From Vulcanococcus limneticus LL (GTDB lineage Bacteria; Cyanobacteriota; Cyanobacteriia; PCC-6307; Cyanobiaceae): 62,845 nt of DNA. Made by a program: the position numbers and the translations under genes. The notes beneath the pieces were generated by a model. The model worked only from the letters and a program-made list of their open reading frames with translations, was not told the DNA's origin and searched no databases. Below, piece by piece: positions 4,028 to 62,790 of this stretch (positions are counted from its first letter, which is position 1; each line of letters begins with the position of its first letter). The DNA is taken from positions 1 to 62,845 of the forward strand of contig NZ_NQLA01000013.1 of assembly GCF_002252705.1 (NCBI RefSeq). Direction: 5' to 3'.

Positions 4028-5473
4028 ATGAGCAGCAGCACGGCCAGCGCCCCCTCCGGTGCCGCGATCAGCGCCGATGCCGCTGGCGCCGGGGCAGGAA
4101 GCCCCGCGGCCACCTCTGCTCCGCGCCCCTTCGAGGTCGAGCGGGATGCGGCCAGTCCCAACCGCAACCTGACCCCGCTCACCACCCGCATCGACGGCCA
4201 AGGTCAGCTCGAGGTGGGTGGCATTGCCCTGGGCGAGCTGGCCCGCCGCTACGGCACTCCCCTCTACGTGCTGGATGAGGCCACCCTGCGGGGCACCTGC
4301 GCCGCCTATCGGGACGCTCTGGCCGCCCACTACCCCGGCGAGGCTCTGGCCCTCTACGCCTCCAAGGCCAACAGCAGCCTGGCGATCACCGCCCTGGTGG
4401 CCTCCGAGGGGCTGGGCCTCGATGCAGTGTCGGCCGGCGAGCTGCTCACGGCCCTGGACGGCGGTATGGCGCCCGATCGGATCGTCTTCCACGGCAACAA
4501 CAAGTCGCTTGAGGAGCTGGACCTGGCGGTGCAGCGCGGCGTGACTGTGGTGGTGGACAACTGGTTCGACCTGGAGAACCTGGCGGCCCTGGCGCCGACG
4601 GCCCCGGTGAACCTGATGCTGCGCTTCACGCCCGGCATCGAGTGCCATACCCACGAGTACATCCGCACCGGCCACCTCGACAGCAAGTTCGGCTTTGACC
4701 CCGACCAGCTGGAGCCGGTGCTTAAGCACCTGGCCGGCTGCCCCTGGGCTCGCCTCAGCGGCCTGCATGCCCATATCGGCTCCCAGATCTTCGAGCTGCA
4801 GCCCCACCACGATCTTGCGGCGGTACTGGCCGATGCCCTGGCCCTGGCCCGCTCCCTCGGCCATCCCGTGACCGATCTGAACGTAGGCGGCGGTCTCGGC
4901 ATCCGCTATGTGGCCAGCGACGATCCCCCGTCGATCCAGCAGTGGGTGCGCACCGTGGCTGAGGCGGTGGTCGCCGCTTGCCAGGCACGTGGCCTGGAGC
5001 TGCCCCGGCTGCTGTGTGAACCAGGGCGTTCCCTGGTGGCCACCGCCGGCGTGACCCTCTACACGGTGGGCAGCCGCAAGGAGATTCCCGGAATCCGCAC
5101 CTACCTGTCGGTGGACGGGGGCATGAGCGATAACCCCCGGCCGATCACCTATCAGTCGCGCTACACGGCGTTGCTGGCGGAGCGGCCCGAGGCCGAGGCC
5201 AGCGAGACGGTGACCGTGGCCGGCAAGCACTGCGAATCCGGCGACGTGCTGCTCAAGGACCTGGCCCTGCCTCCCGCCACCAGCGGCGAGGTGCTGGCCG
5301 TGTTCGCCACCGGCGCCTACAACGCCTCCATGGCCTCCAACTACAACCGCATCCCCCGGCCCGCCACGGTGCTGGTGGGCGATGGTCAGGCTGATCTGGT
5401 GCAGCGCCGTGAGCGGCCAGAGGAGCTGCTGCGCTACGACGTCCTGCCCGAGCGCCTGCGGCCGGTAGCCTGA
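4028..5473 (+). CDS. lysA: Diaminopimelate decarboxylase
   Basis: This PLP enzyme performs the last step of lysine synthesis, decarboxylating meso-diaminopimelate to L-lysine in the cytosol. It is a fold-III alanine-racemase-type barrel of 481 residues. The PLP lysine is K113 in YASKANSS. HAHIGSQ, the NVGGGLGI phosphate-binding loop, EPGRSLV and the CESGD substrate-binding cysteine motif are all present, and the C-terminal beta domain contains GAYNASMASNYN. I chose ATG 4028; the frame is open further upstream but that part overlaps rimI antisense. About 60 residues before the conserved core form a low-complexity Ala/Ser-rich head. It heads a plus-strand run with cdaA 24 bp downstream, so cell-wall precursor supply and c-di-AMP signalling may be co-transcribed. 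Confidence 0.95.
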   Translation: MSSSTASAPSGAAISADAAGAGAGSPAATSAPRPFEVERDAASPNRNLTPLTTRIDGQGQLEVGGIALGELARRYGTPLYVLDEATLRGTCAAYRDALAAHYPGEALALYASKANSSLAITALVASEGLGLDAVSAGELLTALDGGMAPDRIVFHGNNKSLEELDLAVQRGVTVVVDNWFDLENLAALAPTAPVNLMLRFTPGIECHTHEYIRTGHLDSKFGFDPDQLEPVLKHLAGCPWARLSGLHAHIGSQIFELQPHHDLAAVLADALALARSLGHPVTDLNVGGGLGIRYVASDDPPSIQQWVRTVAEAVVAACQARGLELPRLLCEPGRSLVATAGVTLYTVGSRKEIPGIRTYLSVDGGMSDNPRPITYQSRYTALLAERPEAEASETVTVAGKHCESGDVLLKDLALPPATSGEVLAVFATGAYNASMASNYNRIPRPATVLVGDGQADLVQRRERPEELLRYDVLPERLRPVA

Positions 5474-5497
5474 CCCGGAGCACGGGGGCAGTGGGCG

Positions 5498-6394
5498 GTG
5501 TTTGGGCTCGGGCCGTTGGATCTGAGGCTGCTGCTGGATCTGCTCTTCGCCACGGCCCTTGGCATGGTGCTGTTGTCGCGGGTGAACGAGCCGCGCACCC
5601 TCTGGCTGCTGCGGGGCTATCTCACCCTGGTGGCGCTGGCCTGGGTGGTGCAGCGCTACGCCGATCTGCCGCTCACCAGCAAGTTGGTGGATGCCCTGGT
5701 GCTGGCCTGCAGCCTGGCCCTGGCCATCCTCTGGCAAGGGGAGCTGCGCCGGCTGATGGAACTGCTCGGCACTGGCCGGCTTGATGTGCTGTTCGGCAGT
5801 CGTCGGGCCGACCAGCTCGCCTCGGGCTCGGTGGCGGTGCTGAGCGAGGCGGCGGGGCGCCTGTCCCAGCTGCGGCGCGGTGGCCTCATCGTGCTGGATC
5901 TGGGCAGTGATCTGCGCCCCGAGGACTTCCTCAATCCCGGCATCGCCCTCGATGCCCAGCTCTCGGTGGATCTGGTGCTCAATCTCTTCGCCCAGGACAC
6001 GCCCCTCCACGACGGAGCTGTGCTGGTCAAGGACAACCGCATCCTCTCGGCCGGGGTGATCCTGCCCCTCTCGCGCCACCAGGGCCTGAACCGCTACGGC
6101 ACCCGCCACCTGGCGGCCCTGGGGATCACCGAGCGCTTCGATCGCTGTCTCTGCATCGTGGTCTCCGAGGAGACCGGCACCCTGTCGCTGGCGCGTCAGG
6201 GCCGGCTGGAGCGCCCGATCACCAGCAGTCGCCTCCAGGAGTTGCTCAGCGCCGCTGTGGTCAAGAGCTCCACCAAGGCTGGCGGCAAGGGCTCCGTCAA
6301 ACCCGCCGCAAAGGCGGCTGCCAATCCTGCCCCGCTGTTGCCATCGGCCAGTGGGCGTAGCGTGTCAGCGGATTCGCCCGATCGTCATCCATGA
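5498..6394 (+). CDS. cdaA: Diadenylate cyclase (CdaA/DacA family)
   Basis: It makes cyclic di-AMP from two ATP at the membrane; the nucleotide controls potassium and osmotic homeostasis and, in cyanobacteria, night survival. The protein has 298 residues. The N-terminal third has three hydrophobic helices (about 10-30, 38-52, 60-80), followed by a DAC domain. The catalytic DGA motif is D172-G173-A174 in LHDGAVLV. The second motif, RHR in most members, reads RHL at 203-205 (GTRHLAALG). The C-terminus is a Lys/Ala/Pro-rich tail. The start is GTG 5498, which places the first helix correctly; no ATG fits. The stop overlaps the uppS ATG (ATGA at 6391-6394), so the two are translationally coupled. 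Confidence 0.93.
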
Positions 6395-7185
6395 GTCGCG
6401 CCCTGGCGACCTCCGATCCATCCCAGGGGAGTCGACCCGTGCTGCAGGCCCTGCCGGCGGACCTCGATCCGACCCGGCTGCCGGCCCACGTGGCCGTGAT
6501 CATGGACGGCAACGGCCGCTGGGCCCGACGCCGCAACCTGCCGCGGGTGATGGGGCATCGGGAGGGGGTGGAGGCCCTCAAGCGCACCCTGCGCCTCTGC
6601 AGCGACTGGGGCATCGGCGCCCTCACGGCCTACGCCTTCTCCACCGAGAACTGGAGCCGGCCCGGTGAGGAGGTGAGCTTCCTGATGGCCCTGTTCGAGC
6701 GGGTGCTGGCCCGCGAACTGGAGGGTCTGGAGCGCGAGCAGGTGCGCATCCGCTTCTTCGGTGATCTGCAGCAGCTGCCCACAGGCCTGCAGGAGCTGAT
6801 CGCCAGCGCCGAGGCCCGCACCGCCAACAACGTCGGCATCCATTTCAACGTCTGCACCAACTACGGCGGCCGCCGCGAGCTGGTGCGCGCCGCCCGCCGC
6901 CTGGCGGACCAGGTCGCCCGTGGGGAGCTGGATCCGGCGGCGATCGATGAGGCTGCCTTCGCCGCCGAGCTGCACACCGCCGGCGAGTCCGACCCTGACC
7001 TGCTGATCCGCACCAGCGGTGAACAGCGCATCAGTAACTTTCTGCTCTGGCAGCTCGCCTATGCCGAGTTGCACGTCACCGATGTGCTCTGGCCCGACTT
7101 CGACGCCCAGTCCCTGACCCTGGCCCTGCAGGACTATCAGGGCCGCCAGCGCCGTTTCGGCGGCGTCGATCCCGTCTCCCCCTGA
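6391..7185 (+). CDS. uppS: Undecaprenyl diphosphate synthase (cis-prenyltransferase)
   Basis: It condenses isopentenyl diphosphate onto farnesyl diphosphate in cis to make the C55 lipid carrier for peptidoglycan and other glycans. It has 264 residues. Conserved region I is [13 protein letters not shown] with catalytic D39, followed by [24 protein letters not shown] comes next, and [20 protein letters not shown] is region V. The ATG overlaps the cdaA stop and is the only sensible start. About 30 Pro/Ser-rich residues precede the domain. bioB begins 10 bp later. cdaA-uppS coupling recalls the cell-wall linkage of diadenylate cyclases in Firmicutes, although the glmM partner is not here. Confidence 0.96.
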
Positions 7186-7195
7186 TCACCCCGCC

Positions 7196-8221
7196 TTGAT
7201 CGCCACCCCCGCTTACCACGCCAGCACCGCCGCCAACGCCGTCCCCGGGGCTCCGCCGGCACCGTCGATCCGTCACGACTGGACGGTCCCAGAGATCCAG
7301 GCGCTGCTGGAGCTGCCCCTGATGGACCTGCTCTGGTGGGCCCAGGCTGTGCACCGCGCCGCCAATCCCGGCTACCGGGTGCAACTGGCTTCGCTGCTGA
7401 GCGTCAAGACCGGCGGCTGCGAGGAGGACTGCGCCTACTGCCCCCAGTCGCTGCACAACAGCAGCGATGTAACGGGCCGGCCCGAGCTTGAGGTGGAGCC
7501 GGTGCTGGAGCGGGCCCGGGCCGCCAAGCAGGCCGGAGCCCACCGCTTCTGCATGGGCTGGGCCTGGCGCGACATCCGCGATGGCGCCCCATTTGAGGCG
7601 ATGCTGCAGATGGTGCGTGGGGTGCGGGAGCTGGGATTGGAGGCCTGCGTGACCGCCGGCATGCTCACCGACAGCCAGGCGGCGCGGCTGGCGGAGGCCG
7701 GCCTCACCTCCTACAACCACAACCTCGACACCAGCCCCGAGCACTACGACCGGATCATCAGCACCCGCACGTATCAGGAGCGGCTGGAAACCCTGGCGCG
7801 GGTGCGCCGGGCCGGTATCTCCATGTGCTGCGGCGGCATCATCGGCATGGGCGAGACCACCACGGACCGGGCCTCCCTGTTGCAGGTGCTGGCCAGCCTC
7901 AACCCCCATCCCGAGAGCGTGCCGATCAATGCCCTGGTGGCGGTGGAGGGCACGCCGCTGCAGGAGCAGCCGCCGGTGGATCCGCTGGAGCTGGTGCGGA
8001 TGGTGGCCGTGGCCCGGATCCTGATGCCCACCAGTCGGGTGCGGCTCAGCGCGGGCCGCGAAACCATGAGCCGCGAGGGCCAGGTGCTCTGCCTGCTGGC
8101 GGGCGCCGATTCGATCTTCTACGGCGACACCCTGCTCACCACCGGCAACTCCGCAGTGGACGCTGACCGCGAGCTGCTGGCGGCCGCGGGCGTGAACCCC
8201 TGGCTCGATCCCTCCCGCTGA
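7196..8221 (+). CDS. bioB: Biotin synthase
   Basis: This radical-SAM enzyme inserts sulfur into dethiobiotin, the last step of biotin synthesis. It has 341 residues with the radical [4Fe-4S] motif C75-x3-C79-x2-C82 ([13 protein letters not shown]), then the TIM-barrel core with [33 protein letters not shown] and SAGRETM. BioB also binds a [2Fe-2S] cluster that is the sulfur donor; the relevant cysteines and the SAGRE arginine are in place. The start is assigned to TTG 7196, 10 bp after uppS, because no ATG or GTG fits before the conserved core; the first 25 residues are low complexity, so this start is uncertain. Confidence 0.95.
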
Positions 8222-8229
8222 GGTCGGCC

Positions 8230-9183
8230 ATGACAGTGCAGGTGGCGGCCTTCTACGGCTTTGCGGCAATGGAAGGCCTGCTGGAGCTGCAGCAGGAGCT
8301 GAAGGCTCTGGCGGCGGCTGGGACTGTGCGGGGCACGATCCTGCTGGCGGGTGAGGGCGTCAACGGCACCATCAGCGGGCCGCCGGCCGGGGTGGGGCGG
8401 GTGCTGGCGCGGCTGCGGGCCCTGCCGGGCCTGACGAACCTGGAGGCCAAGCTCAGCTGGGCGCCGCAGCCGGTGTTCCACCGGCTCAAGGTGCGGCTCA
8501 AGCGCGAGATCGTGACCATGGGCTGCCCCACGGTGAAGCCGGCTGAACAGGTGGGCACCTACGTGCCCCCCGAGCACTGGGACGAGCTGATCCGCGACCC
8601 CGACACCCTGGTGATCGACACCCGCAATGCCTACGAGGTGGCGATCGGCAGCTTCGAGGGCGCCCTCGATCCCGGCACCGCCAGCTTCCGGGAGTTCCCC
8701 ACCTGGGTGGAGCAGGAGCTGCGGCCCCTGGTGGCTCAGCGCCGGCCCAAGGCGATCGCCATGTTCTGCACGGGCGGTATCCGCTGCGAGAAGGCCACGG
8801 CCTACCTGCAGCAGCAGGGCTTCGCCGGGGTGCATCACCTCCAGGGCGGGATCCTGAAGTATCTGGAGGAGGTGCCCGAGCAGGGCAGCAGCTGGCGGGG
8901 GGAGTGCTACGTGTTCGACCGGCGCGTGAGTGTGAATCACCGGCTGGAGCCAGGGATCTACAGCCTCTGCCATGCCTGCGGCCTGCCCCTCTCACCTGCC
9001 GATCGGGCCCTCCCCAGCTACCGGGAGGGGGTGAGCTGTCGTCACTGCATCGAGCGGTTCAGCGAGGCCGATCGCGAGCGCTTCGCCGAGCGTCAGCGGC
9101 AGATGGAGCGGGCCCGCACCCGCCGGGATGTCCCCATGGGGGTGTCGCCGGGGGCTGTGGCGCGGGGAGGCCAGGGGGCGTGA
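8230..9183 (+). CDS. trhO: tRNA uridine(34) hydroxylase, rhodanese family
   Basis: TrhO (YceA/UPF0176 family) hydroxylates U34 of certain tRNAs to 5-hydroxyuridine using molecular oxygen. The 317-residue protein has an N-terminal acylphosphatase-like domain with GEGVNGTISG (about 41-50), then a rhodanese domain with VIDTRNAYEVAIG and the active-site loop CTGGIRCEKAT (Cys180), and a C-terminal region with cysteine pairs CHAC and CRHC that may bind metal. ATG 8230 follows bioB by 8 bp. The last residues overlap the GTG start of the next gene by 4 bases (GTGA). Confidence 0.93.
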   Translation: MTVQVAAFYGFAAMEGLLELQQELKALAAAGTVRGTILLAGEGVNGTISGPPAGVGRVLARLRALPGLTNLEAKLSWAPQPVFHRLKVRLKREIVTMGCPTVKPAEQVGTYVPPEHWDELIRDPDTLVIDTRNAYEVAIGSFEGALDPGTASFREFPTWVEQELRPLVAQRRPKAIAMFCTGGIRCEKATAYLQQQGFAGVHHLQGGILKYLEEVPEQGSSWRGECYVFDRRVSVNHRLEPGIYSLCHACGLPLSPADRALPSYREGVSCRHCIERFSEADRERFAERQRQMERARTRRDVPMGVSPGAVARGGQGA

Positions 9184-10172
9184 CCAACCGCATCGGGGCG
9201 CTGCCGATCCTCTACAGCTTCCGGCGCTGCCCCTATGCCATCCGGGCCCGGCTGGCGATCGCGGTCTCCGGTCTGGTGGTGGAGTTGCGGGAGGTGGACC
9301 TCAGGGCCAAGCCCAGCCCACTGCTGACGGCCTCTCCCAAGGGCACGGTGCCCGTGCTGGTGCTCGGGGATGGCTCCGTTCTGGAGCAGAGCCTGGAGCT
9401 GATGGGCTGGGCCCTGGACCAGCACGATCCGGGCGACTGGCTCCGCCGGGGACCTGGAACCAAGGCGATCGTGGAGCGGCAGCGCATCGCCGATCTGATC
9501 GCCTGCAACGACGAGCAGTTCAAGCCCCATCTCGACCGCTACAAGTACGCCAGTCGCTACCCGGGCGCTGACCCGCTGGAGAACAGGCAGGCGGCTCTGG
9601 AGATTCTCCGGGACTGGAACGGTTGGCTCCAGGCCGGTGGCTGGCTGCTGGGGGAGCGGCCCTCGCTCGCTGATGCCGCGTTGCTGCCGTTCGTGCGTCA
9701 GTTCCGCCTGGCCGATCCGGCCTGGTTTGATGCCCTGGAGGATCTCGCTCCGCTGCAGGCCTGGCTGAGGCGGTTCCTGGCCAGCCCCGAGCTGGCGGCG
9801 GCCCTGGAGTCCGTCTCCCCGTGGCGGCCGGAGGATCCCCAACGCCTGTTCCCCTCCCATCGCCGTCTGCATCACCTGGCTCTGGCCAGCGAGTGGGAGC
9901 AAGCCCGCCGCGACGGCAGCTACCGGCGCTCCACCCGGGGGCAGAGCCTTGAGCAGGTGGGCTTCATCCACGCCAGCTTCGAGCACCAGCTGGCGGCCAC
10001 CCACGCTCGCTTCTTCGCCGAGGCGCCGCCGTTGCTGCGGCTGGAGATCGATCCGGCCAGGCTCTCCGCGCCCCTGGCCCTGGAGCCCGCTCCGGGCGGC
10101 CATGAGCTGTTCCCCCACATCCACGGGCCCCTGAATCTGGACGCCGTGGTGGCGGTGGAGCCCTACCCATGA
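9180..10172 (+). CDS. Glutathione S-transferase-like protein fused to a DUF952 domain
   Basis: This predicted 330-residue protein combines two parts. Residues 1-215 or so form a GST: a thioredoxin-like N-domain with the SFRRCPYAIRARLAI motif (CPxA in the glutathione-binding position), KGTVPVL with the cis-proline, and SLELMGWAL, then an all-helical C-domain with ERPSLADAALLPFVRQFR. Residues 225-330 match the DUF952 pattern: LHHLALASEWEQARRDGSYR, GFIHAS, and a C-terminal FPHIHGPLNLDAVV. DUF952 folds like a small ADP-ribosyltransferase-related domain; its role is unknown. The start is GTG 9180, overlapping the trhO stop. Both halves lie in one uninterrupted frame. Substrate unknown. Confidence 0.82.
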   Translation: MTNRIGALPILYSFRRCPYAIRARLAIAVSGLVVELREVDLRAKPSPLLTASPKGTVPVLVLGDGSVLEQSLELMGWALDQHDPGDWLRRGPGTKAIVERQRIADLIACNDEQFKPHLDRYKYASRYPGADPLENRQAALEILRDWNGWLQAGGWLLGERPSLADAALLPFVRQFRLADPAWFDALEDLAPLQAWLRRFLASPELAAALESVSPWRPEDPQRLFPSHRRLHHLALASEWEQARRDGSYRRSTRGQSLEQVGFIHASFEHQLAATHARFFAEAPPLLRLEIDPARLSAPLALEPAPGGHELFPHIHGPLNLDAVVAVEPYP

Positions 10173-10690
10173 CCACACCCGCCGTGGTCGATCCTCCGAT
10201 CGGCCTGGAAACGATCGAAGCCAGGGCAGCCCGGCGCGGCCTGCTGCTGCGGCTGCGGGCCCCGCGCCGCCTGGGGGTCTGGAGTCTGCAGGTGGTGGTG
10301 GCACGGCCCCGGCCTGGCCAGTCGCCCCTGCTGCTGGGGGAACTGAAGGGGTGGGCCGTCCCGACGGCGACGGGTCTGCATCTGGACACACTGCGGGTGT
10401 GGGGGGAGACCAGCTACAGGGTGGGCCCCCTGATCTGGGCCGCCACCTTCGCCTGGGCCCTGGAGACCACCCCTTGCCGCCGGGCCCGGCTGCTCGCCAT
10501 CCGCGATGGGCCTGAACAGCACAGACGGCTGGTGCGTTATTTCCAACGGCTGGGCTTTTGGCCGCAGCGGGAGCTGGGGGCCGGGCCCCTGGATCTGGGG
10601 CCCCGGCTGCTGTGGGGCGGCTCGGGGCTGCTGATGGAGGGTGACTGTGCCGGCGGGCTGCGGCGCTGCCAGCACTTGCTGGGGGAGTGA
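10169..10690 (+). CDS. Conserved hypothetical protein
   Basis: This 173-residue protein has no motif I can name with confidence. It is Arg/Leu-rich and has no signal peptide or membrane helix. The second half (ARLLAIRDGPEQHRRLVRYF, then LGFWPQREL) resembles the tail of GNAT acetyltransferases (LYxxLGF-like), but the acetyl-CoA loop is not evident. The ATG overlaps the stop of the GST-DUF952 gene by 4 bases (ATGA), so it is the last gene of the lysA-led run. Bases 10691-10818 hold no other gene that I can see. Confidence 0.7.
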   Translation: MTTPAVVDPPIGLETIEARAARRGLLLRLRAPRRLGVWSLQVVVARPRPGQSPLLLGELKGWAVPTATGLHLDTLRVWGETSYRVGPLIWAATFAWALETTPCRRARLLAIRDGPEQHRRLVRYFQRLGFWPQRELGAGPLDLGPRLLWGGSGLLMEGDCAGGLRRCQHLLGE

Positions 10691-54974: not shown

Positions 54975-57068
54975 ATGGCAGCAAGCGTTTTCAATCACGC
55001 CCGTGCTCTTCATCTGCTGCGGGCAGGATCGGGTAATCCCAAGGCCGATTTCCGCGATGGCCAACTGGAGGCGATCCAGGCCGTCTGCGAACAGTCCAGC
55101 CGCGTAATGGTGGTGCAGAAGACGGGGTGGGGCAAGAGCTTCGTCTACTTCATTTCTACCCTCCTTTACCGCGATGCCGGGCGAGGCCCGTCGCTGTTGA
55201 TCTCACCTTTGCTCTCTCTGATGCGCAACCAGGTGGCCGCCGCAGAGCGCATGGGTCTTCGTGCTGCCACAGTCAACACTGAGAATCAGTACCAGTGGCA
55301 GCGTATTGAGCGTCAGGTCGCCAATGGAGAGCTTGATCTCCTGTTGATCTCGCCAGAGCGCCTGCAAAACGAACGGTTCATCCTTGGGCCTATGGCAGCT
55401 CTGAACCCGAGCCTGGTTGTGATTGATGAAGCTCACTGCATTTCCGACTGGGGACACGACTTCCGCCCCGACTATCGGCGCCTGGGCCGGCTGGTGAAAA
55501 CCATTCCTAATATCTCGCTGCTCGCCACCACCGCTACAGCTAGCCAGCGCGTGATGGACGACCTCGCTGCCGAACTGGGTCCGAGCCTCTATCAACTCCG
55601 CGGAGACCTTAACCGCTCCTCGCTCACCTTGCAGACGCTGCAGCTCCCAAGCCAGACCGCACGGTTGGCCTGGCTGGCGAGCACCATTCGCACCATGGAA
55701 GGCAGCGGCATCGTCTACACCCTCACTAAACGCGATGCCCGCGTGGTGGCGGGCTGGCTCAAAGAGTGCGGCATTGAGGCTGAGGCCTACTTTGGTGGTA
55801 GCAGCATGGTGAGCTCAGAGCGCGAGCGCCTGGAGGAAGCGTTGATCCGCGACCAGCTGCAAGTTCTCGTGGCCACAACAGCGCTGGGTATGGGCTACGA
55901 CAAACCCAATCTCGCCTTCGTGTTCCATTACCAGATGCCGGGCTCGGTCGTGGCTTACTACCAACAGGTGGGGCGTGCCGGTCGGGCCTTAGAAGCTGCG
56001 CGGGGTGTGCTGCTCTCAGGCCGGGAAGACCTCCGCATCAATCAGTTCTTCATCCGCAATGCCTTCCCAACACGGGCTGCCGTGGAGGAGGTGCTCACCG
56101 TGCTGGATCAGGCACCTGAGGATGGACTCCACCTCAATCGCTTGATGGAGACCATTAATCTCAGTGAGCAACGCATTCAGCAAACACTCAAAATCCTATC
56201 GCTTGAGGTGCCAGCTCCAGTGGGCTGCACCAACAACATGTGGCAGCGCCTACCCGCGCCGGTCTCTCCATCCTTCTGGCAGCGAGTGGAGCGTCTTGAG
56301 CAGCGGCGCGAAGAAGAGCTCAATCAGATGCAGGCCTTCCTTGAGCTCCCCTACGGTAGTCACATGCCGTTTGTGGTCCAGGCCCTTGACGGCGACCCCT
56401 TTAACGTGGATGCGCCTCGGTTAGCACCCCTGAGCGAGCTCGTGGACAGGGAGCTCGCCATGCACGCTGCCGCCTACCTCAAACGCCTGGATATCCCCAT
56501 CTACCCCCGCAAGGAGTGGCCGATTTGGGGCATCCCTAGTTTCGCGCCACCCAAGAACAAGTACATTTATACCAGTCGCAAGGCTGAGGTGGGGCGGGCT
56601 CTCTGCTACTGGAGTGATGCCGGTTGGGGGGGGCTGGTAGAGCAAGGCAAGTACAAGGACGGCCGCTTCTCTCAGGAGCTTGTGGATGCCTGCGTTGCTC
56701 TCCTGGAGCGCTGGAGCCCCTCTCCCGCTCCGGAATGGGTCTGCTGCATCCCCTCCAGCCGCCATCGCGAGCTCGTCCCAGATTTCGCCTACCGGCTGGC
56801 TGGCGCGCTGGGTCTGCCCTTTGTTGAGGCTCTGGTGAAGGTGCGGGAGAACGAGCAGCAGAAAGCCATGCAGAACAACACCCAGCAGGTCCGCAACCTG
56901 GATGGAGCGTTTGCGGTATGCCCTGAACTGCCTCCCGGACCCTGCCTCCTTGTCGACGACATGGTCGACAGCCGCTGGACATTTGCCGTAGCAGCCTGGC
57001 AGCTGCGAGCGGCCGGCAGTGGGCCAGTGTTACCGCTTGCATTGGCCCAGACTGGACAAGGCCGATGA
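54975..57068 (+). CDS. psyrT: RecQ-like helicase with C-terminal phosphoribosyltransferase domain (PsyrT/RqlH)
   Basis: This 697-residue protein pairs two domains. Residues 1-360 are a RecQ-type superfamily 2 helicase: FRDGQLEAIQAV, Walker A TGWGKS (50-55), ISPLLSLMRNQV, VIDEAHC (DEAH 151-154) then ISDWGHDFRPDYRRL, LATTATAS, ATTALGMGYDKPNL and YQQVGRAGR. The RQC and HRDC domains of true RecQ are missing. The C-terminal 200 residues contain a phosphoribosyltransferase-like domain with CLLVDDMVDSRWT (DD 661-662). This architecture next to a DprA-family gene is that of the PsyrTA (RqlHI) toxin-antitoxin system, known to restrict plasmids and phage. The partner gene overlaps its stop (ATGA). Confidence 0.85.
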   Translation: MAASVFNHARALHLLRAGSGNPKADFRDGQLEAIQAVCEQSSRVMVVQKTGWGKSFVYFISTLLYRDAGRGPSLLISPLLSLMRNQVAAAERMGLRAATVNTENQYQWQRIERQVANGELDLLLISPERLQNERFILGPMAALNPSLVVIDEAHCISDWGHDFRPDYRRLGRLVKTIPNISLLATTATASQRVMDDLAAELGPSLYQLRGDLNRSSLTLQTLQLPSQTARLAWLASTIRTMEGSGIVYTLTKRDARVVAGWLKECGIEAEAYFGGSSMVSSERERLEEALIRDQLQVLVATTALGMGYDKPNLAFVFHYQMPGSVVAYYQQVGRAGRALEAARGVLLSGREDLRINQFFIRNAFPTRAAVEEVLTVLDQAPEDGLHLNRLMETINLSEQRIQQTLKILSLEVPAPVGCTNNMWQRLPAPVSPSFWQRVERLEQRREEELNQMQAFLELPYGSHMPFVVQALDGDPFNVDAPRLAPLSELVDRELAMHAAAYLKRLDIPIYPRKEWPIWGIPSFAPPKNKYIYTSRKAEVGRALCYWSDAGWGGLVEQGKYKDGRFSQELVDACVALLERWSPSPAPEWVCCIPSSRHRELVPDFAYRLAGALGLPFVEALVKVRENEQQKAMQNNTQQVRNLDGAFAVCPELPPGPCLLVDDMVDSRWTFAVAAWQLRAAGSGPVLPLALAQTGQGR

Positions 57069-58447
57069 CCCTTGCTCCTGAGCCACCGATGGGTCCTGTA
57101 ACCCTCTCGGACAACACCCAGGCAGTGCTGCTGCTCACCTCGCCTCTGTTAGTTGGAGGATCTGAGGGGTCAGCGGGTGCCAAGGTGCTTAGCGCAGGTG
57201 AATACAGCCAGCTGGCTATGAGCTTGCGGCAGTCGCGACACCAGCCAGCCGATCTTCTCAATGGTGGACGCGACGCGCTGCTGGCCTCTTTGCCAGCCCA
57301 TTTCGACCCCGAGCGCCTGAGTCAGCTGCTATCGCGCGGCTTCCAACTAGGTCAAGCGATTGAGCACTGGGCCAACCGCTCGATCACCGTCATCAGCCGC
57401 GCCGACGAGGTCTACCCCAGGCGCTACAAGCAGCGCCTGAAGCACCTGGCTCCACCGTTGCTCTACGTCTGCGGCCATCTTGCGCTGCTCGACAGCCCTG
57501 CGCTGGCAGTGGTCGGCTCACGTTCGACACCGGAGGTTGTCTTACAGCAAACCACCGAGATCGCTTCCTTAGCGGCATCCGCAGGCGTTGTTATTGCCTC
57601 CGGTGCCGCCCGAGGTGTTGATGAAGCGGCCATGCTCGGCGCCCTCAATGCAGGTGGGTATGCCATCGGTGTAGTGGCGGACAGTCTTGAAAAAATGAGC
57701 GCAAAGCCCATTTGGCGCCAAGGGCTGATTGATGGACGCTTACTGCTGCTATCCGCAGACGCGCCGAGTGCACGCTTCCAGCCGTGGCGGGCGATGGCAC
57801 GCAACAAATTGGTCTATGCCTTATCTGATGCCGCTTTAGTGATGAGCTCTGACAAGGATCGTGGCGGGACATGGGAGGGAGCCAAGGAGCAACTAACCAA
57901 GATCAGATCTTGTCCTATCTATGTGATGGATGACCCGCGGGGAGGGGAGGGCCTTCCAGCAATTCATGCGATGGGAGCAGGCCTCTGGCCCTATCCATCG
58001 TCTCCAGAACAGCTGAAATTAGTCGTGGTCGATAAGCCTCCGCTACGCCATACTCCCACTGCTTATCATAATAAGATGCACGCTGATCTTCATGCAGAGT
58101 CTCTGCAGCAGTCACTATGGGATCTAGGTGACTTCAGTCCTAGACTGGTTTTATCAGAAGTCAATGAGGATATTGGTGCGGCTACCGATTGCAAGTCCGG
58201 CGAAACAAAGCAGCCATCTCTAAAGCCAGATCATAGCCTTCTGGGTCGAACACTCTCCCCCGCAGATGAATTGCATGCTTTTGCCAAGAAGGTAATCCTC
58301 GAAGCGCTGGAGCACCCCAAAACAGAATCTGATCTTGTGGAACTGCTCAAGATTGCAAGACCCCAGATCAAAGACTGGTGTAGTGCGCTAGTTGCCCAAG
58401 GGCACGCTAAGAGATTGAATAAGCCCATCCGATATGTCAGATCCTGA
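57065..58447 (+). CDS. psyrA: DprA-family nucleotide-binding protein (PsyrA/RqlI)
   Basis: This 460-residue protein has a DprA/Smf Rossmann-like core: RADEVYPRRYKQRLKHLAPP, LAVVGSRSTPEVV, VIASGAARGVDEAAM (the SGxAxGID-like motif) and YAIGVVADSLEK, with ARNKLVYALSDAALVM as the C-terminal part of the fold. Flanking regions are longer than in plain DprA. A C-terminal segment (residues about 410-460: LEHPKTESDLVELLKIARPQ) resembles a winged helix. In PsyrTA the DprA-like partner is reported as the antitoxin of the helicase toxin. The ATG overlaps the psyrT stop by 4 bases. Confidence 0.85.
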   Translation: MTLAPEPPMGPVTLSDNTQAVLLLTSPLLVGGSEGSAGAKVLSAGEYSQLAMSLRQSRHQPADLLNGGRDALLASLPAHFDPERLSQLLSRGFQLGQAIEHWANRSITVISRADEVYPRRYKQRLKHLAPPLLYVCGHLALLDSPALAVVGSRSTPEVVLQQTTEIASLAASAGVVIASGAARGVDEAAMLGALNAGGYAIGVVADSLEKMSAKPIWRQGLIDGRLLLLSADAPSARFQPWRAMARNKLVYALSDAALVMSSDKDRGGTWEGAKEQLTKIRSCPIYVMDDPRGGEGLPAIHAMGAGLWPYPSSPEQLKLVVVDKPPLRHTPTAYHNKMHADLHAESLQQSLWDLGDFSPRLVLSEVNEDIGAATDCKSGETKQPSLKPDHSLLGRTLSPADELHAFAKKVILEALEHPKTESDLVELLKIARPQIKDWCSALVAQGHAKRLNKPIRYVRS

Positions 58448-58599
58448 ATTTGGTGTTCGTATCTGATTCAGTGGCGGCCAGGGCGAATTTGAGGCTTTAT
58501 CGCGGGAAAGATCGTGCCCATTGCCTTCAAATAAACGGCGAACGTAATTGCCATAGTAGCGCTCTTAATTGTTCTGCAGGCTACGGGCTGGTGCAACTT

Positions 58600-58636
58600 T
58601 GACGTGGACCCCGGAAACCGGTCCAGGGTGAATGAG
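58600..58636 (+). repeat. Left terminal inverted repeat of the IS3 element
   Basis: TGACGTG, CCCC, GGTCCAGG and ATGAG blocks match the reverse complement of 59804-59839 in order, with small spacing differences. Confidence 0.85.
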
Positions 58637-58673
58637 AGTCCTCATCCGGCCAGACTGGGCCGGGGACTCGACC

Positions 58674-58952
58674 ATGAAACGCACCAGGCACACGGCGGAG
58701 CAGATCATCCGCAAGCTCAAAACCGCCGAGCAGCTGATCGCCCAGGGCAAGACCGTGGCCGACGTCTGCCGTGTCATCGAGGTGACGCAGCCGACTTACC
58801 ACCGCTGGAAGCAGCAGTACGGGGGCATGCAGGCCGAGGAGGCCAGGCGGCTGACTCAGCTGGAGAAGGAGAACGCTCGGCTCAAGAAGCTGCTGGCAGA
58901 GGCCGAGTTGGAGAAAGCGATGCTCAAGGATCTCGCCGAGGGAAACTTCTGA
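58674..58952 (+). CDS. IS3-family transposase OrfA
   Basis: This 92-residue protein has the IS3 OrfA layout: a helix-turn-helix (TAEQIIRKLKTAEQLIAQG, VADVCRVIEVTQPTYHRWK) that binds the element ends, then a leucine-rich coiled coil (EKENARLKKLLAEAELEKAM). The last codons include the slippery heptamer GGGAAAC at 58940-58946, read as G GGA AAC, six bases before the stop TGA at 58950. Start ATG 58674. Confidence 0.93.
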   Translation: MKRTRHTAEQIIRKLKTAEQLIAQGKTVADVCRVIEVTQPTYHRWKQQYGGMQAEEARRLTQLEKENARLKKLLAEAELEKAMLKDLAEGNF

Positions 58953-59788
58953 GCCCGGAGCGTCGCCGCAGAGCCGTTGCGGTTCTGCAGGAGCGTTACC
59001 GGGCCTCTGAACGCCTGGCCTGCCGGGTGGTGGGCCAGCACCGCAGCACCCAGCGTCACAACGGCAACGTTGTTTCGATCGAGGAGGCCAAGCTCCGCCA
59101 CCGTCTCCGCGAAATCGCGGCTGAGCACATCCGCTGGGGCCGCCGGATGGCCTACCGCCTGCTCAGGCGAGAGGGCTGGACGGTGAACCACAAGCGGGTG
59201 CAGCGGCTCTGGCGGGAGGAAGGCCTGCAGCGGCCCACTCCCCGGAAGCGAAAGCGGGCTCGGCCCGCAGATGGCTCTGTGCGGCGTCACCAGGCTGAGC
59301 ATCCCCACCAGGTGTGGGCCATGGACTTCCAGTTCGATGCCACAGCTGATGGCCGCAGGCTCAAGTTCCTGAACGTGATCGATGAGCACAGCCGCCTCTG
59401 CCTGGCCATCCGGGTGGGAAGGCGCTGCAAGGCAAAGGATGTGGTGACTGTGCTGGAGGAGCTCACCAGCCTCTACCCGGCCCCGGCGTTCATCCGATCA
59501 GACAACGGTCCGGAGTTCATCGCCCAGGCACTACGGGGCTGGTGCGAGGCCAGCACCACCACCAGCACGGCCTACATCGCGCCCGGATCTCCGTGGGAGA
59601 ACGGTTTCGCGGAATCGTTCAACGGACGGTTCAGGGATGAGTTCCTCAATACGGAGCTGTTCACCACAGCTCCAGAGGCGCAGATCCTGGCCGATCGTTG
59701 GCGCTGGGCGTACAACACCCTCAGGCCGCATTCGGCCCTCCAGGGGCGTACGCCCGTGGAGGCAGCTCAACAGGGAGCTGCAGCATGA
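58946..59788 (+). CDS. IS3-family transposase OrfB (catalytic part, made by -1 frameshift)
   Basis: This frame, about 280 residues, is read after a -1 shift at GGGAAAC and continues through RRRRAVAVLQERYRASERL, the HTH_21-like region (HIRWGRRMAYRLLRREGW) and the DDE integrase core: D in VWAMDFQFDA, D in FIRSDNGPEFIA, and E in GSPWENGFAESFNGRFRDEF. The D-35-E spacing and the FNGRFRDEFLN segment fit the IS407/IS2-like groups of IS3. No disabling stop is present, so the element may be active. Confidence 0.93.
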   Translation, partial: LLSPERRRRAVAVLQERYRASERLACRVVGQHRSTQRHNGNVVSIEEAKLRHRLREIAAEHIRWGRRMAYRLLRREGWTVNHKRVQRLWREEGLQRPTPRKRKRARPADGSVRRHQAEHPHQVWAMDFQFDATADGRRLKFLNVIDEHSRLCLAIRVGRRCKAKDVVTVLEELTSLYPAPAFIRSDNGPEFIAQALRGWCEASTTTSTAYIAPGSPWENGFAESFNGRFRDEFLNTELFTTAPEAQILADRWRWAYNTLRPHSALQGRTPVEAAQQGAAA

Positions 59789-59803
59789 CCACACCCACCA
59801 ACT

Positions 59804-59839
59804 CTCATAAGGCCTGGACCAACGAAGGGGGTCACGTCA
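59804..59839 (+). repeat. Right terminal inverted repeat of the IS3 element
   Basis: Reverse complement begins TGACGTGACC, with GGTCCAGG and ATGAG further in, pairing with the left repeat at 58600-58636. Confidence 0.85.
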
Positions 59840-59840
59840 C

Positions 59841-60839
59841 TTCGATAACCGGGAGCAGGTGTTGATCCCCTCCACGCCGGTGCGCGACCCCCACCCCTTC
59901 CTCGCGGCGATCAACACCATCCACAGTGGCAGTTGCACGGCCCTGTTCGACGGATGGTTGGCCGGCGCACTGCAGGCAGCCGAACATCAAAATCCAGCAG
60001 CCCTCAATCGGGTGCTGCTCCTCTCCGATGGTCAGGCCAACCGTGGCCTGACTGACATGGGAGAGATCGCCGACCGGGTGGCCGGACTGACCCAGCGAGG
60101 AGTCAGCACCAGCGCCTTCGGGCTAGGCATGGACTTCGATGAGGACTTGATGGGGGCGATCGCCATGGCCGGTGACGGCACCCTGGCCCACATCCAATCC
60201 CCCCGGCAGCTCGATGAGCTCTACGACGCCGAATTACAGGGCCTGGCTACGACCTTTGGCCATAGGGTGAGCCTTGGCCTCCGGGCCACGAACGGCGCCG
60301 AACTGGAGGATGTCCTCAACGATCTGCCCCTCACCCCATTGGGCAATCGCCAGCTCCCTGGGCTGCGCTACGGGCGGGAGCTGAATGTCGCGGTTCGGTT
60401 GCAGCTGCCCGCCTGGCAGGCGAACCAGGAGATCGCCAGCGTGCGGCTGGCCTGGAATCCACCCGGCGATGAGCAGCGCCAGGAGCTGGTTCAACTCCTG
60501 GCCCTGCCGGTCCTTCCTGCAGAAGAGATCGCAGCCCTGCCCACTGACAGCGCCGTGGCCGAGGAGTTTGCCGTGCAGGCCGCCAATCGTGCCCGCAGAC
60601 AGGCGATGGCGGAGCTAGATCGTGGCGACATGGTCGCCGCCACAGGCACTCTCGCACGGATGACCTCCTGGATGTCGAGCCTTTCCCCCTCGCCACGCAC
60701 AACCCGGGAACTGCAGCTGTTGCAGGAGAAGCTGGGACTGCTGATGAGCGACCGGAATCTGGCCCGCAAAAACCTCAGCAGGGAATCCCTTCGCTCCAGC
60801 CTTGAGGTATGGGAGAGCGAGAACAGACCCTCGGACTGA
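59841..60839 (+). pseudogene. von Willebrand factor A domain protein, N-terminus lost at the IS edge
   Basis: The frame enters from the IS boundary (TTC GAT AAC = FDNREQVLIPSTPV), which is the interior of a vWA domain following a strand that normally reads like xxLVxFD. It continues with STAL-like CTALFDGWLAGAL, RVLLLSDGQANRG (the strand with the conserved Asp-Gly) and STSAFGLGMDFDEDLM, then a C-terminal half rich in beta strands and a helical end. The first part, with the MIDAS DxSxS motif, is missing. The bases left of the IS do not encode it. About 332 residues remain; a TTG at 59859 could start a shortened protein, but the metal site would be incomplete. Confidence 0.75.
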
Positions 60840-60889
60840 TTGCCGATCCAGGGAACCCCAGACGAACACCCACCATCCGGAGCACAACC

Positions 60890-61420
60890 ATGACCAGCAC
60901 CCCACAGAATCTGATCGATCGCCTCAAGGCCAGGATCCAGCGTGAAGTCACCGAGATCGAGGCCAGGGCCGACCTCACCACAGAGGAGAAGGTCTCTCGC
61001 ATCATCCATATCTTTTCGGCCACCTGTGCAGCCGCCGCCGCACAACCACTTCCATTTGCCGACATCTTTATTCTCACTCCGATTCAGGCTTACATGGGAG
61101 CGCGCCTGTCAGCCATCCGGGGGATGCCGATAAGTGATGCAAAGGCCAACGAACTTCTTAAGGAAGTCCTAGGCACCGTCGGGATGGGGATGTTGGCCCA
61201 GCAGGCCGCCTTGGGTCTCTACAAAGTGGGGCTACCTTTCCTCGCAGGCGTCACCACCATCCCGCTGGTGTATGGCCTGACCTTCGCCATTGGGAGAACC
61301 ATGGACTATTACCTCAAGGAGAAGGCTAGAGGGAAAGTTGTTAGTGCCGTCGATCTCAAGCGCATGTGGCATGACTACCAGAAGGAGGGCCGTAGCAAGG
61401 GCAAGGAGTTCAAGCCATGA
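60890..61420 (+). CDS. DUF697-like membrane-associated protein
   Basis: This 176-residue protein has a helical head (LIDRLKARIQREVTEIEARA), then LPFADIFILTPIQAYMGARL and MGMLAQQAALGLYKVGLPFL and AGVTTIPLVYGLTFAIGRTM, the Gly/Ala-rich amphipathic helices characteristic of DUF697 (YcjF-related), which associates with membranes and often follows a GTPase domain. A charged tail (LKRMWHDYQKEGRSKGKEF) follows. ATG 60890 has GGAG upstream. Overlaps the next gene by 4 bases (ATGA) and follows the vWA frame by 50 bp, so the three are one operon. Confidence 0.75.
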   Translation: MTSTPQNLIDRLKARIQREVTEIEARADLTTEEKVSRIIHIFSATCAAAAAQPLPFADIFILTPIQAYMGARLSAIRGMPISDAKANELLKEVLGTVGMGMLAQQAALGLYKVGLPFLAGVTTIPLVYGLTFAIGRTMDYYLKEKARGKVVSAVDLKRMWHDYQKEGRSKGKEFKP

Positions 61421-62283
61421 CGCGCATCCCGTCGCCAATGGTCCGGTTCCTCAGCTGCCGGTTCGATGAAGTTGCCATCCTTACGGCGCTGGCCAAGATC
61501 ACATGGGCCGACGAGCCCCCCGGAGAGACGGACTATGCGGTGCTGGCTGCCCTCAAGCGAAGTTCACCGGAATGGGATCTTCCCCTGGAGCAGATCAGCG
61601 AGAAGCTCTCTACCTTCAACGATGACCAGATTGTGGGACTTGTCAATAATGTCAAAGGGATTCTTCATGAGATGGAATTCCAGGCTTTGGAGAACAGCGA
61701 TGGGGATACTGTCTACGCGGCACTGTTCCCGGATACAAATCACCAGGGGGTTGACGTCCAGTTGACGGATGCCAGCTCAGGTGAGATCTGGGAGGTACAG
61801 CTCAAGTCCACAGACAACCCAGGCTTGATCAATGAATGGTTGGAATCAAATCCGGATTCTCAAATCCTGGTCACTGAGGAGCTAGCAGAGAAGATGAACC
61901 TGGAGTCTTCTGGCCTTAGTAATCAGGAGATGACCATCAGGGTGGAAGACTTTGTGGACCGAATGCAGGAGTTGAATCAGACGACCGATGACACGATATG
62001 GACATACTTCCCCTTTCTGCCGCTTCTCTCGACTGGCATCATTGTCTTTGAGCTCTGGCGGCGGCATCGTGCGGGAATTCTTACAATTGATCAATTCCGT
62101 GATCTCACCCTGAAGACTCTTGGGATCAAGGCCGCAAAATACGCCACGCTTTTTGCTGCTCTGTCAGTACCTGGCTTGAATGTTGTGGTTGCGGTGTATC
62201 TCCTGGCTTCACTTGTGATGTCTAGCGCATCCATTGCTCATGAGGCAATGAGTTTTCGGCCGCTTAAGTGGATAAAACGCTGA
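61417..62283 (+). CDS. Membrane protein with a possible nuclease-like domain
   Basis: This 288-residue protein has a soluble N-terminal half, a central segment with a D(x)n-ExQ-like signature (HQGVDVQLTDASSGE, then WEVQLKSTDNP) resembling a degenerate PD-(D/E)xK nuclease core, followed by SNPDSQILVTEELAEKM. The C-terminal third has hydrophobic helices (about 200-217 and 238-275: AAKYATLFAALSVPGLNVVV). The predicted match to a nuclease fold is from motif shape only. It is the last gene of the vWA-DUF697 operon, overlapping the DUF697 stop. Family unknown. Confidence 0.6.
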   Translation: MTRIPSPMVRFLSCRFDEVAILTALAKITWADEPPGETDYAVLAALKRSSPEWDLPLEQISEKLSTFNDDQIVGLVNNVKGILHEMEFQALENSDGDTVYAALFPDTNHQGVDVQLTDASSGEIWEVQLKSTDNPGLINEWLESNPDSQILVTEELAEKMNLESSGLSNQEMTIRVEDFVDRMQELNQTTDDTIWTYFPFLPLLSTGIIVFELWRRHRAGILTIDQFRDLTLKTLGIKAAKYATLFAALSVPGLNVVVAVYLLASLVMSSASIAHEAMSFRPLKWIKR

Positions 62284-62472: not shown

Positions 62473-62790
62473 ATGAGCCTTGTTAACACGCCGATTGTTG
62501 GGGCCCAGATTTCCGAAGTATACAAATGGCTTTGCTTTGTCGGATACTTAAGTCATTCGATGATTCCAAGAAGTGCCGGTCGAATGGATGATATTCAGTC
62601 CGTCTTGGAATATGTTTCTAAGCACCGCGCTCGTGATCTAAGCGAGTCTGGCGCTTGGTGGGACTCTTTCTTGATTAACCGTGATAATAGGCTGTATACT
62701 GCATTTCTCATTAATGGTATTCGCTCAATTCCAAGAGAAGAGACTCTTGGGCACCTCGAAAAATCAACAATACACTTGATTCCGGCATGA
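62473..62790 (+). CDS. Hypothetical protein
   Basis: A 105-residue frame from ATG 62473 to a stop at 62790 (SLVNTPIVGAQISEVYKWLC, then MDDIQSVLEYVSKHRARD and SGAWWDSFLINRDNRLYTAF). Composition is AT-richer than the rest of the window, consistent with foreign origin. I recognise no family. 62284-62472 upstream holds no gene that I can see; 62791-62845 is non-coding to the window edge. Confidence 0.5.
   Translation: MSLVNTPIVGAQISEVYKWLCFVGYLSHSMIPRSAGRMDDIQSVLEYVSKHRARDLSESGAWWDSFLINRDNRLYTAFLINGIRSIPREETLGHLEKSTIHLIPA

Follow-up and report, generated by a model that had tools for sequence, protein, structure and literature searches.

A DUF697-partnered, two-gene variant of the candidate PDC-M72 module in Vulcanococcus limneticus

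Two overlapping genes at a contig end

Near the right-hand end of contig NZ_NQLA01000013.1 of Vulcanococcus limneticus LL (Cyanobiaceae), we identified two overlapping genes, here called A and B, that constitute a DUF697-partnered variant of PDC-M72, a candidate module held in PADLOC-DB. The stretch analysed, hereafter the window, is the entire contig (62,845 nucleotides) from a genome of 3.55 Mb in 160 contigs, and it ends 562 bases past gene B (Table 1). Two PsaA/PsaB matches in this genome mark the host as a cyanobacterium; of 14 control genomes searched alongside, Synechococcus elongatus alone gave a match. The original prediction, made from the sequence alone, had described three frames here, encoding a vWA protein, a DUF697-like protein and a nuclease-like membrane protein, and these frames are present with the spacing that it gave: a 50-bp gap separates the vWA frame from A, and the frames of A and B overlap by 4 bp. 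The pair A+B recurs in distant bacteria in the same order and with overlapping frames, B carries a residue pattern like that of PD-(D/E)XK nucleases, and the vWA frame proved to be a truncated neighbour.

Both A and B have the marks of real genes, because each is preceded by a Shine-Dalgarno-like sequence (GGAG 7 bases 5' of the A ATG, and AGGAG 8 bases 5' of the B ATG) and because protein identity is kept despite synonymous saturation. Specifically, the window and a viral-contig record, L008, share 81% amino-acid identity in A and 72% in B, with synonymous differences past saturation (proportion of synonymous differences, pS, 0.80 and 0.79). Between L008 and L006, a locus in another genome (G198) of the host's family, the ratio of nonsynonymous to synonymous rates (dN/dS) was 0.05 for A and 0.15 for B. 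By these sequence comparisons, both genes are under purifying selection. For A, the start at ATG 60890 agrees with homologues better than a longer frame from 60809 does. Further, the pair has a G+C content of 54%, versus 71% in the first 45 kb of the window, which points to a foreign composition.

Table 1. Features at the right-hand end of the window, with the evidence for each
Feature	Position	Strand	Evidence and remarks
PsyrTA (RecQ-like PsyrT, DprA-like PsyrA)	54975..58447	+	PADLOC; island context, outside the A+B pair
IS3-family insertion sequence, ends approximate	58599..59841	+	NF033516 transposase match; partial copies in the genome
vWA remnant, 5'-truncated	59841..60839	+	VWA profile match, IS border, homologue comparison; neighbour of the A+B pair
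Gene A, DUF697-like, 176 aa	60890..61420	+	Profile, homologues, helical model
Gene B, EVQLK protein, 288 aa	61417..62283	+	PDC-M72B match, residue pattern over 24 homologues, 4-bp overlap, hydrophobic segment
Putative catalytic core of B, Glu85-Lys130 (including Asp113 and Gln128)	61669..61806	+	Residue conservation

The resemblance of A to DUF697 (PF05128), proposed originally, is real (E 3.1e-6) but borderline, with 27.5 bits against a curated cut-off of 27.7 over profile positions 8-95 of 162; the A protein of a relative, L055, scores 17.9 bits. DUF697 is often the tail of GTPases, whereas A is a stand-alone protein with no GTPase domain match in Pfam. Identity between A and five relatives ranges from 51 to 81%, and an AlphaFold2 model built from five sequences is all-helical, with seven helices and a predicted local distance difference test (pLDDT) score of 83.6. 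One hydrophobic segment rises above threshold in A (score 1.67) and one in B (residues 256-274, C-terminal), in keeping with the membrane character that had been predicted for both proteins. Structure searches with A gave no significant Foldseek match, and the best VIA-align row was a TetR regulator (Z 6.8, root-mean-square deviation (rmsd) 4.1, 133 residues aligned), a level common for unrelated folds. A PDB profile search with A returned nothing significant, and PADLOC, searched at E values up to 0.1, returned no match. Within the family of the host, the A profile matched 31 of 300 genomes, strongly only in the window genome and G198; the other 29 matches are weak (at most 27.4 bits) and lie within frames of 283-576 aa. 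We consider A to be probably a membrane anchor or sensor partner of B.

Gene B, its partners and its spread

The product of B matches PDC-M72B (E 2.3e-21, residues 42-191), a family already in PADLOC-DB as a candidate whose function is not stated there, and the same family was matched by all 14 other B proteins scanned, out of 23 others. The EVQLK segment had been likened to a divergent PD-(D/E)xK nuclease, and the comparison of 24 B proteins bears this likeness out in a conserved motif and a matching residue pattern. The signature of these nucleases consists of a Glu in the first helix, then an Asp, then (D/E/Q)-x-Lys, Gln variants included, and the B alignment holds these residues in that order. 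Lys80, Gly81, Asn93, Asp113, Lys130, Thr153 and Glu155 are invariant in 24/24 proteins, Glu85 is present in 23 (one has Asp) and Gln128 in 22 (two have Ser). An AlphaFold2 model of B from six sequences, of low confidence (mean pLDDT 53.7), has a helix at residues 69-94, strands at 99-103, 114-118 and 124-129, a helix at 135-144 and a strand at 149-152, which is the alpha-beta-beta-beta-alpha-beta order expected for PD-(D/E)XK. Among the VIA-align rows for B, the best is an oligosaccharyltransferase membrane subunit (Z 8.0, rmsd 7.9, 101 aligned), again at a level common for unrelated folds, and no nuclease family stands out; this is uninformative, because rows covering mainly residues 191-282 fill the list. 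Taken on its residue pattern, B is probably a nuclease.

Beyond the window, the A+B pair was found in seven further loci, so DUF697-EVQLK is a gene neighbourhood that recurs. These loci comprise two in Gammaproteobacteria (L003 and, from Halopseudomonas, L004), one in Seonamhaeicola of the Bacteroidota (L005), the viral-contig record L008, and one each in G198 (L006), G846 (L055) and G705 (L056). In all eight loci, window included, A lies directly 5' of B with overlapping frames; the overlap is 4 bp in six loci, including L006 (A end at 7269 and B start at 7272, minus strand), 1 bp in L005 and 8 bp in L003, where the end of A looks frame-shifted. A tree of the 24 B cores places the eight DUF697-partnered loci in one clade (support 100/99), and the pair spans three phyla: cyanobacteria, Pseudomonadota and Bacteroidota.

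The partner of B varies beyond this clade. In addition to the eight B proteins with DUF697-like partners, PADLOC assigned PDC-M09A-like partners to five, situated 5' of B in L010, L012 and L092 and fused to it in L009 and L093, and the partner in L058 is PDC-M09A-like by eye. Two loci, L094 and L095, have ankyrin partners matching PDC-M72A (E 1.6e-179 and 5.1e-172). Four B proteins carry N-terminal extensions or fusions, namely L060, with strong hydrophobic segments, its look-alike L059, and L062 and L064. L061 and L063 have other neighbours, with a weak zinc-ribbon similarity, under the cut-off, in L063, and the partner is unclassified in L046 and in L057, the latter at a contig end. On the B tree, the full set of partner labels requires 7 changes, the minimum possible, compared with a mean of 14.5 after shuffling. 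The DUF697 group, the ankyrin group, the zinc-neighbour group and both fusion groups each fall on one side of a branch, and the PDC-M09A-like group takes 3 changes and forms a single clade in 0% of bootstrap trees. Thus, as far as the sequences tell, partner type differs between branches of B, and most branches keep to one type. How many partner exchanges took place, and in what order, is uncertain, since the PDC-M09A-like group is not one clade and long branches meet in the tree, as the program warns.

These partners also define how the window pair relates to the two PADLOC-DB candidates that it most touches. It shares the B family with PDC-M72, and in L094 and L095 the PDC-M72A gene overlaps B just as A does. 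In contrast, the PDC-M72 partner is an ankyrin protein rather than a DUF697-like one, A has no PDC-M72A match in the PADLOC search, and window B, at 288 aa against 193 and 198, extends further in its C-terminal hydrophobic region. For PDC-M72 as a whole, PADLOC-DB gives no function. As for PDC-M09, its glycine-rich, PDC-M09A-like proteins stand before other B proteins or are joined to them in one chain, whereas A gave no PDC-M09A match in the same search, and hhalign found no profile similarity between A and the PDC-M09A-like proteins (probability 0.8 of 100).

The distribution of B is patchy. With the single window protein as query, B was found in 2 of 200 genomes of the host's order (the window genome and G198) and in 1 of 388 genomes of its class (the window's own). 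With a profile as query, it was found in 9 of 321 genomes in G525's class, a count that includes G524 and G525, both already known, in 1 of 247 genomes of the class of G526, the already known one, and in 5 of 299 genomes of the phylum of G525, one of them already known; rates from the single-protein and profile searches are not comparable. Partial matches to B lie on two plasmids, one of them typed as conjugative. Phage records gave no B match; a profile scan of viral contigs returned L012 and L008 again, and two viral-contig scans with distant B proteins returned no relative.

Defence genes and the interrupted vWA frame

Directly upstream of the insertion sequence (IS) lies a nearly full-length PsyrTA, with PADLOC matches for PsyrT (E 4.5e-250) and PsyrA (E 6.4e-113), so the description of the region as a defence-bearing island was apt. 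PsyrTA is a toxin-antitoxin system. Four other upstream proteins of the window had no PADLOC match. Defence genes also lie near other B loci, specifically a type IIG gene (L005), QatC (L012), GmrSD, by Pfam (L010), a CBASS cyclase (L093) and UzuA of Uzume (L009). Together with the window, this gives 6 loci with a curated defence gene close by among the 20 whose neighbours were scanned (all of the 24 except L057, L058, L062 and L064). At four loci, neighbours matched families that we take as candidates only: PDC-M45A-C (L006), C3a187 (L094), PDC-S31 (L063) and PDC-M16B (L095).

The vWA frame opens at the right end of the IS3 element, whose transposase matches NF033516 at E 7.5e-68, with the border at about 59839-59843. 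To place the ends of the element, we used the 30 other partial matches listed for this genome, of which 27 span 87-112 bases. On the left side, nearly all start at window positions 58597-58601 (one at 58583); on the right side, all end at 59839-59843. The window copy is the only full-length one among the 31 matches listed, which come from 40 scored candidates out of 200. Of the 30 partial matches, 13 begin at contig base 1 or 3, so the assembly breaks at copies of this element, and the PsyrTA side could have been linked to the vWA-A-B side by an assembly choice.

What remains of the vWA frame corresponds to profile positions 53-173 of the Pfam VWA family, at a score under the cut-off, with positions 1-52 missing, and it has no DxSxS, the motif of the metal ion-dependent adhesion site (MIDAS). 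A full-length homologue in G136, of the same genus and 63% identical, has DRSGS at residue 80, and the window frame begins at about residue 123 of that homologue, past the motif. A genome search for the missing half found nothing beyond a weak 37% match elsewhere, and the translated left flank of the IS is, by eye, unlike it. When both vWA sequences were compared by tblastn (E up to 0.01) with the 23 other B loci (3.0-18.0 kb), there was no match; their sole match was G136's own vWA locus, and G136 has no B match. Given the IS border, the missing profile half and the lack of a match in the 23 other B loci, we regard the vWA frame as an IS-cut neighbour. The vWA protein was therefore rejected as a component of the system, and with it the three-gene system that had originally been proposed.

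Interpretation of the pair

We interpret A+B, with a probability of about 55%, as a two-gene, horizontally moving, membrane-located nuclease module that is most likely anti-phage. The anti-phage role is probable because the pair travels between distant bacteria and adjoins anti-virus genes; that is, we infer it from spread and neighbourhood. The nuclease-like domain is constant, and its partner, where it could be named, is variously a hydrophobic protein, a fusion or a repeat protein, an arrangement that suits an effector restrained by a sensor or anchor. For nuclease activity, topology, contact between A and B, trigger and target, the scheme that we infer runs as follows. The DUF697-like helices of A would sit in or on the inner membrane and hold B there, with B made up of a cytoplasmic PD-(D/E)XK-type domain (Glu85, Asp113 and Gln128-x-Lys130) and a C-terminal hydrophobic region. 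Being held at the membrane would keep B off the chromosome; phage entry or a membrane disturbance would be sensed through A, and B, once released, would cut the incoming phage DNA.

The working analogy for this scheme is SNIPE, a membrane anchor joined to a nuclease. According to the SNIPE report (PMC13190303), an inner-membrane anchor both keeps the nuclease harmless to the host and positions it at the site of phage DNA entry; among SNIPE homologues the anchors vary and the nuclease is conserved. By analogy, A+B may work in the same way, with A holding B at the membrane until infection releases it. SNIPE differs in having a GIY-YIG nuclease and DUF4041 in a single chain, and neither domain was found in A or B (Pfam, E up to 1). 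A likeness to Kiwa and Zorya also exists, in that a membrane sensor has a DNA-acting partner; according to a review (PMC12904381), Zorya, Kiwa and SNIPE act at the membrane, and Kiwa (membrane protein KwaA with KwaB) and Zorya pair a membrane sensor with a DNA-acting partner and are thought to respond there.

Several observations weigh against our interpretation. The confidence of the B model is poor, and so the structure prediction originally suggested as a check on the nuclease fold agreed in element order and went no further: the best Foldseek match of B in the PDB was the restriction enzyme BstEII at E 0.39, which is not significant, and rank 3, a restriction-endonuclease-like protein at E 1.9, is not significant either. 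At the sequence level, neither whole B proteins nor the 24 cores gave a significant match to nucleases among PDB profiles, NCBIfam or Pfam. The hydrophobicity of A is modest and confined to a single segment, and the membrane tail of B is not universal, since the B proteins of L012 and L046 and the extended one of L062 have no hydrophobic segment above threshold. A promoter scan of the interval from the IS to A returned no promoter-like site. The tally of 6 in 20 loci with a defence neighbour does not amount to a statistic, as it comes from hand-chosen neighbours and PADLOC scans of limited size, with no control loci or background rate for comparison. No PADLOC family was matched among the scanned neighbours of L003, L004, L055 and L046 (two each) or of L056, L059 and L092 (one each), and the three neighbours scanned at L061 gave one weak match (E 0.008).

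The main rival is a system of the abortive-infection or toxin-antitoxin type, in which B would be a nuclease toxin that degrades the nucleic acids of host and phage alike, with A (elsewhere the ankyrin or PDC-M09A-like partner) as an inhibitor released on infection. We consider this unlikely, albeit the most serious of the alternatives. The tight overlap with A first and the varied partners around a constant effector-like domain would suit it, as would the adjacent PsyrTA, which illustrates that such systems collect here; however, a hydrophobic A together with a hydrophobic B tail would be unusual for a simple antitoxin-toxin pair, and the fused forms of L009, L060 and L093 would put toxin and inhibitor in a single chain. 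Less probable again is a housekeeping or stress role at the membrane with no link to phages, in which A would be related to the DUF697 membrane domains of larger proteins. Such a role would accommodate the weak A-profile matches within larger frames in 29 of the 300 family genomes, and the several loci where the few scanned neighbours include no defence gene, but it sits poorly with the very patchy spread, the foreign composition, the B copies on plasmids and viral contigs, and the repeated defence neighbours.

Two further explanations seem very improbable. In the first, B would be a nuclease effector injected into other bacteria, and A would partner it or confer immunity. The hydrophobic segments and varied N-termini attached to the nuclease-like domain would suit this; yet inspection of the listed neighbours by eye (no profile test was made) turned up no recognisable secretion-system gene, and A precedes B and is itself hydrophobic. 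A three-gene vWA-DUF697-nuclease complex is strongly disfavoured and, in our estimate, the least probable reading of all: the frames are contiguous in the window, but the vWA gene is cut by the IS3 element, lacks the MIDAS motif and has no match in the 23 other B loci, and its nearest relative found, in G136, lies in a genome with no B match.

Returning to the membrane-located nuclease module, a broader version of it is attractive, although we hold it tentatively and would put it somewhat below even odds. In this version, B would be the founding member of a widespread family of plug-in nuclease effectors, in which one conserved PD-(D/E)XK-like domain is coupled to exchangeable sensors, either membrane or repeat proteins (DUF697-like, PDC-M09A-like, ankyrin or fused membrane segments). 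The DUF697 form would then count as a new defence system, with a membrane domain that otherwise occurs in larger proteins working as both phage-entry sensor and anchor. The original prediction knew of no named system with this gene set; B itself was already catalogued in PADLOC as candidate PDC-M72B. In open-licence publications, judged by titles and the starts of abstracts, we found no characterised system with the DUF697-EVQLK pair, nothing on PDC-M72 and nothing on DUF697 together with phage defense, and no paper on DUF697 was about defence by its title. The PADLOC scan, whose library should include Kiwa and Zorya models, matched B only to PDC-M72B and A to nothing. What appears to be new is the DUF697-like partner, the presence of the pair in three phyla, and the view of B as an effector that works with various kinds of partner.

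PDC-M72B is a catalogued yet functionally blank defence candidate, and the compact 1.4-kb, two-gene form present in three phyla, together with the residue pattern and the variety of partners, makes it testable in a laboratory strain. If our interpretation is true, A+B would be a further barrier to phage DNA at the membrane, alongside SNIPE, Kiwa and Zorya; DUF697 would gain a role, and the pair would help to show how systems at the membrane distinguish incoming DNA from the cell's own.

Further observations were made around individual B loci. PDC-M45 genes, encoding a dual-OB protein and two small proteins, lie directly 5' of A+B in L006 (7988-9763) and, by eye, in L008 (5153-7276). In L012, a viral-contig record, the PDC-M09A-like/B pair is followed by QatC, with an intervening gene that has no PADLOC match (4334-8194). 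A TPR protein with weak AAA-ATPase (IetA/TRIP13) matches is encoded 5' of the membrane-fused B of L060 (360-3593), and in L094 a NERD+UvrD helicase gene, the one matching C3a187, comes after the ankyrin and B genes (4311-8104). Following B in L008 is a 431-aa protein (8934-10229) with no PADLOC or Pfam family match, and in the window a short, probably degraded frame 3' of B (62473-62790) is 61% identical to that protein over 92 aa.

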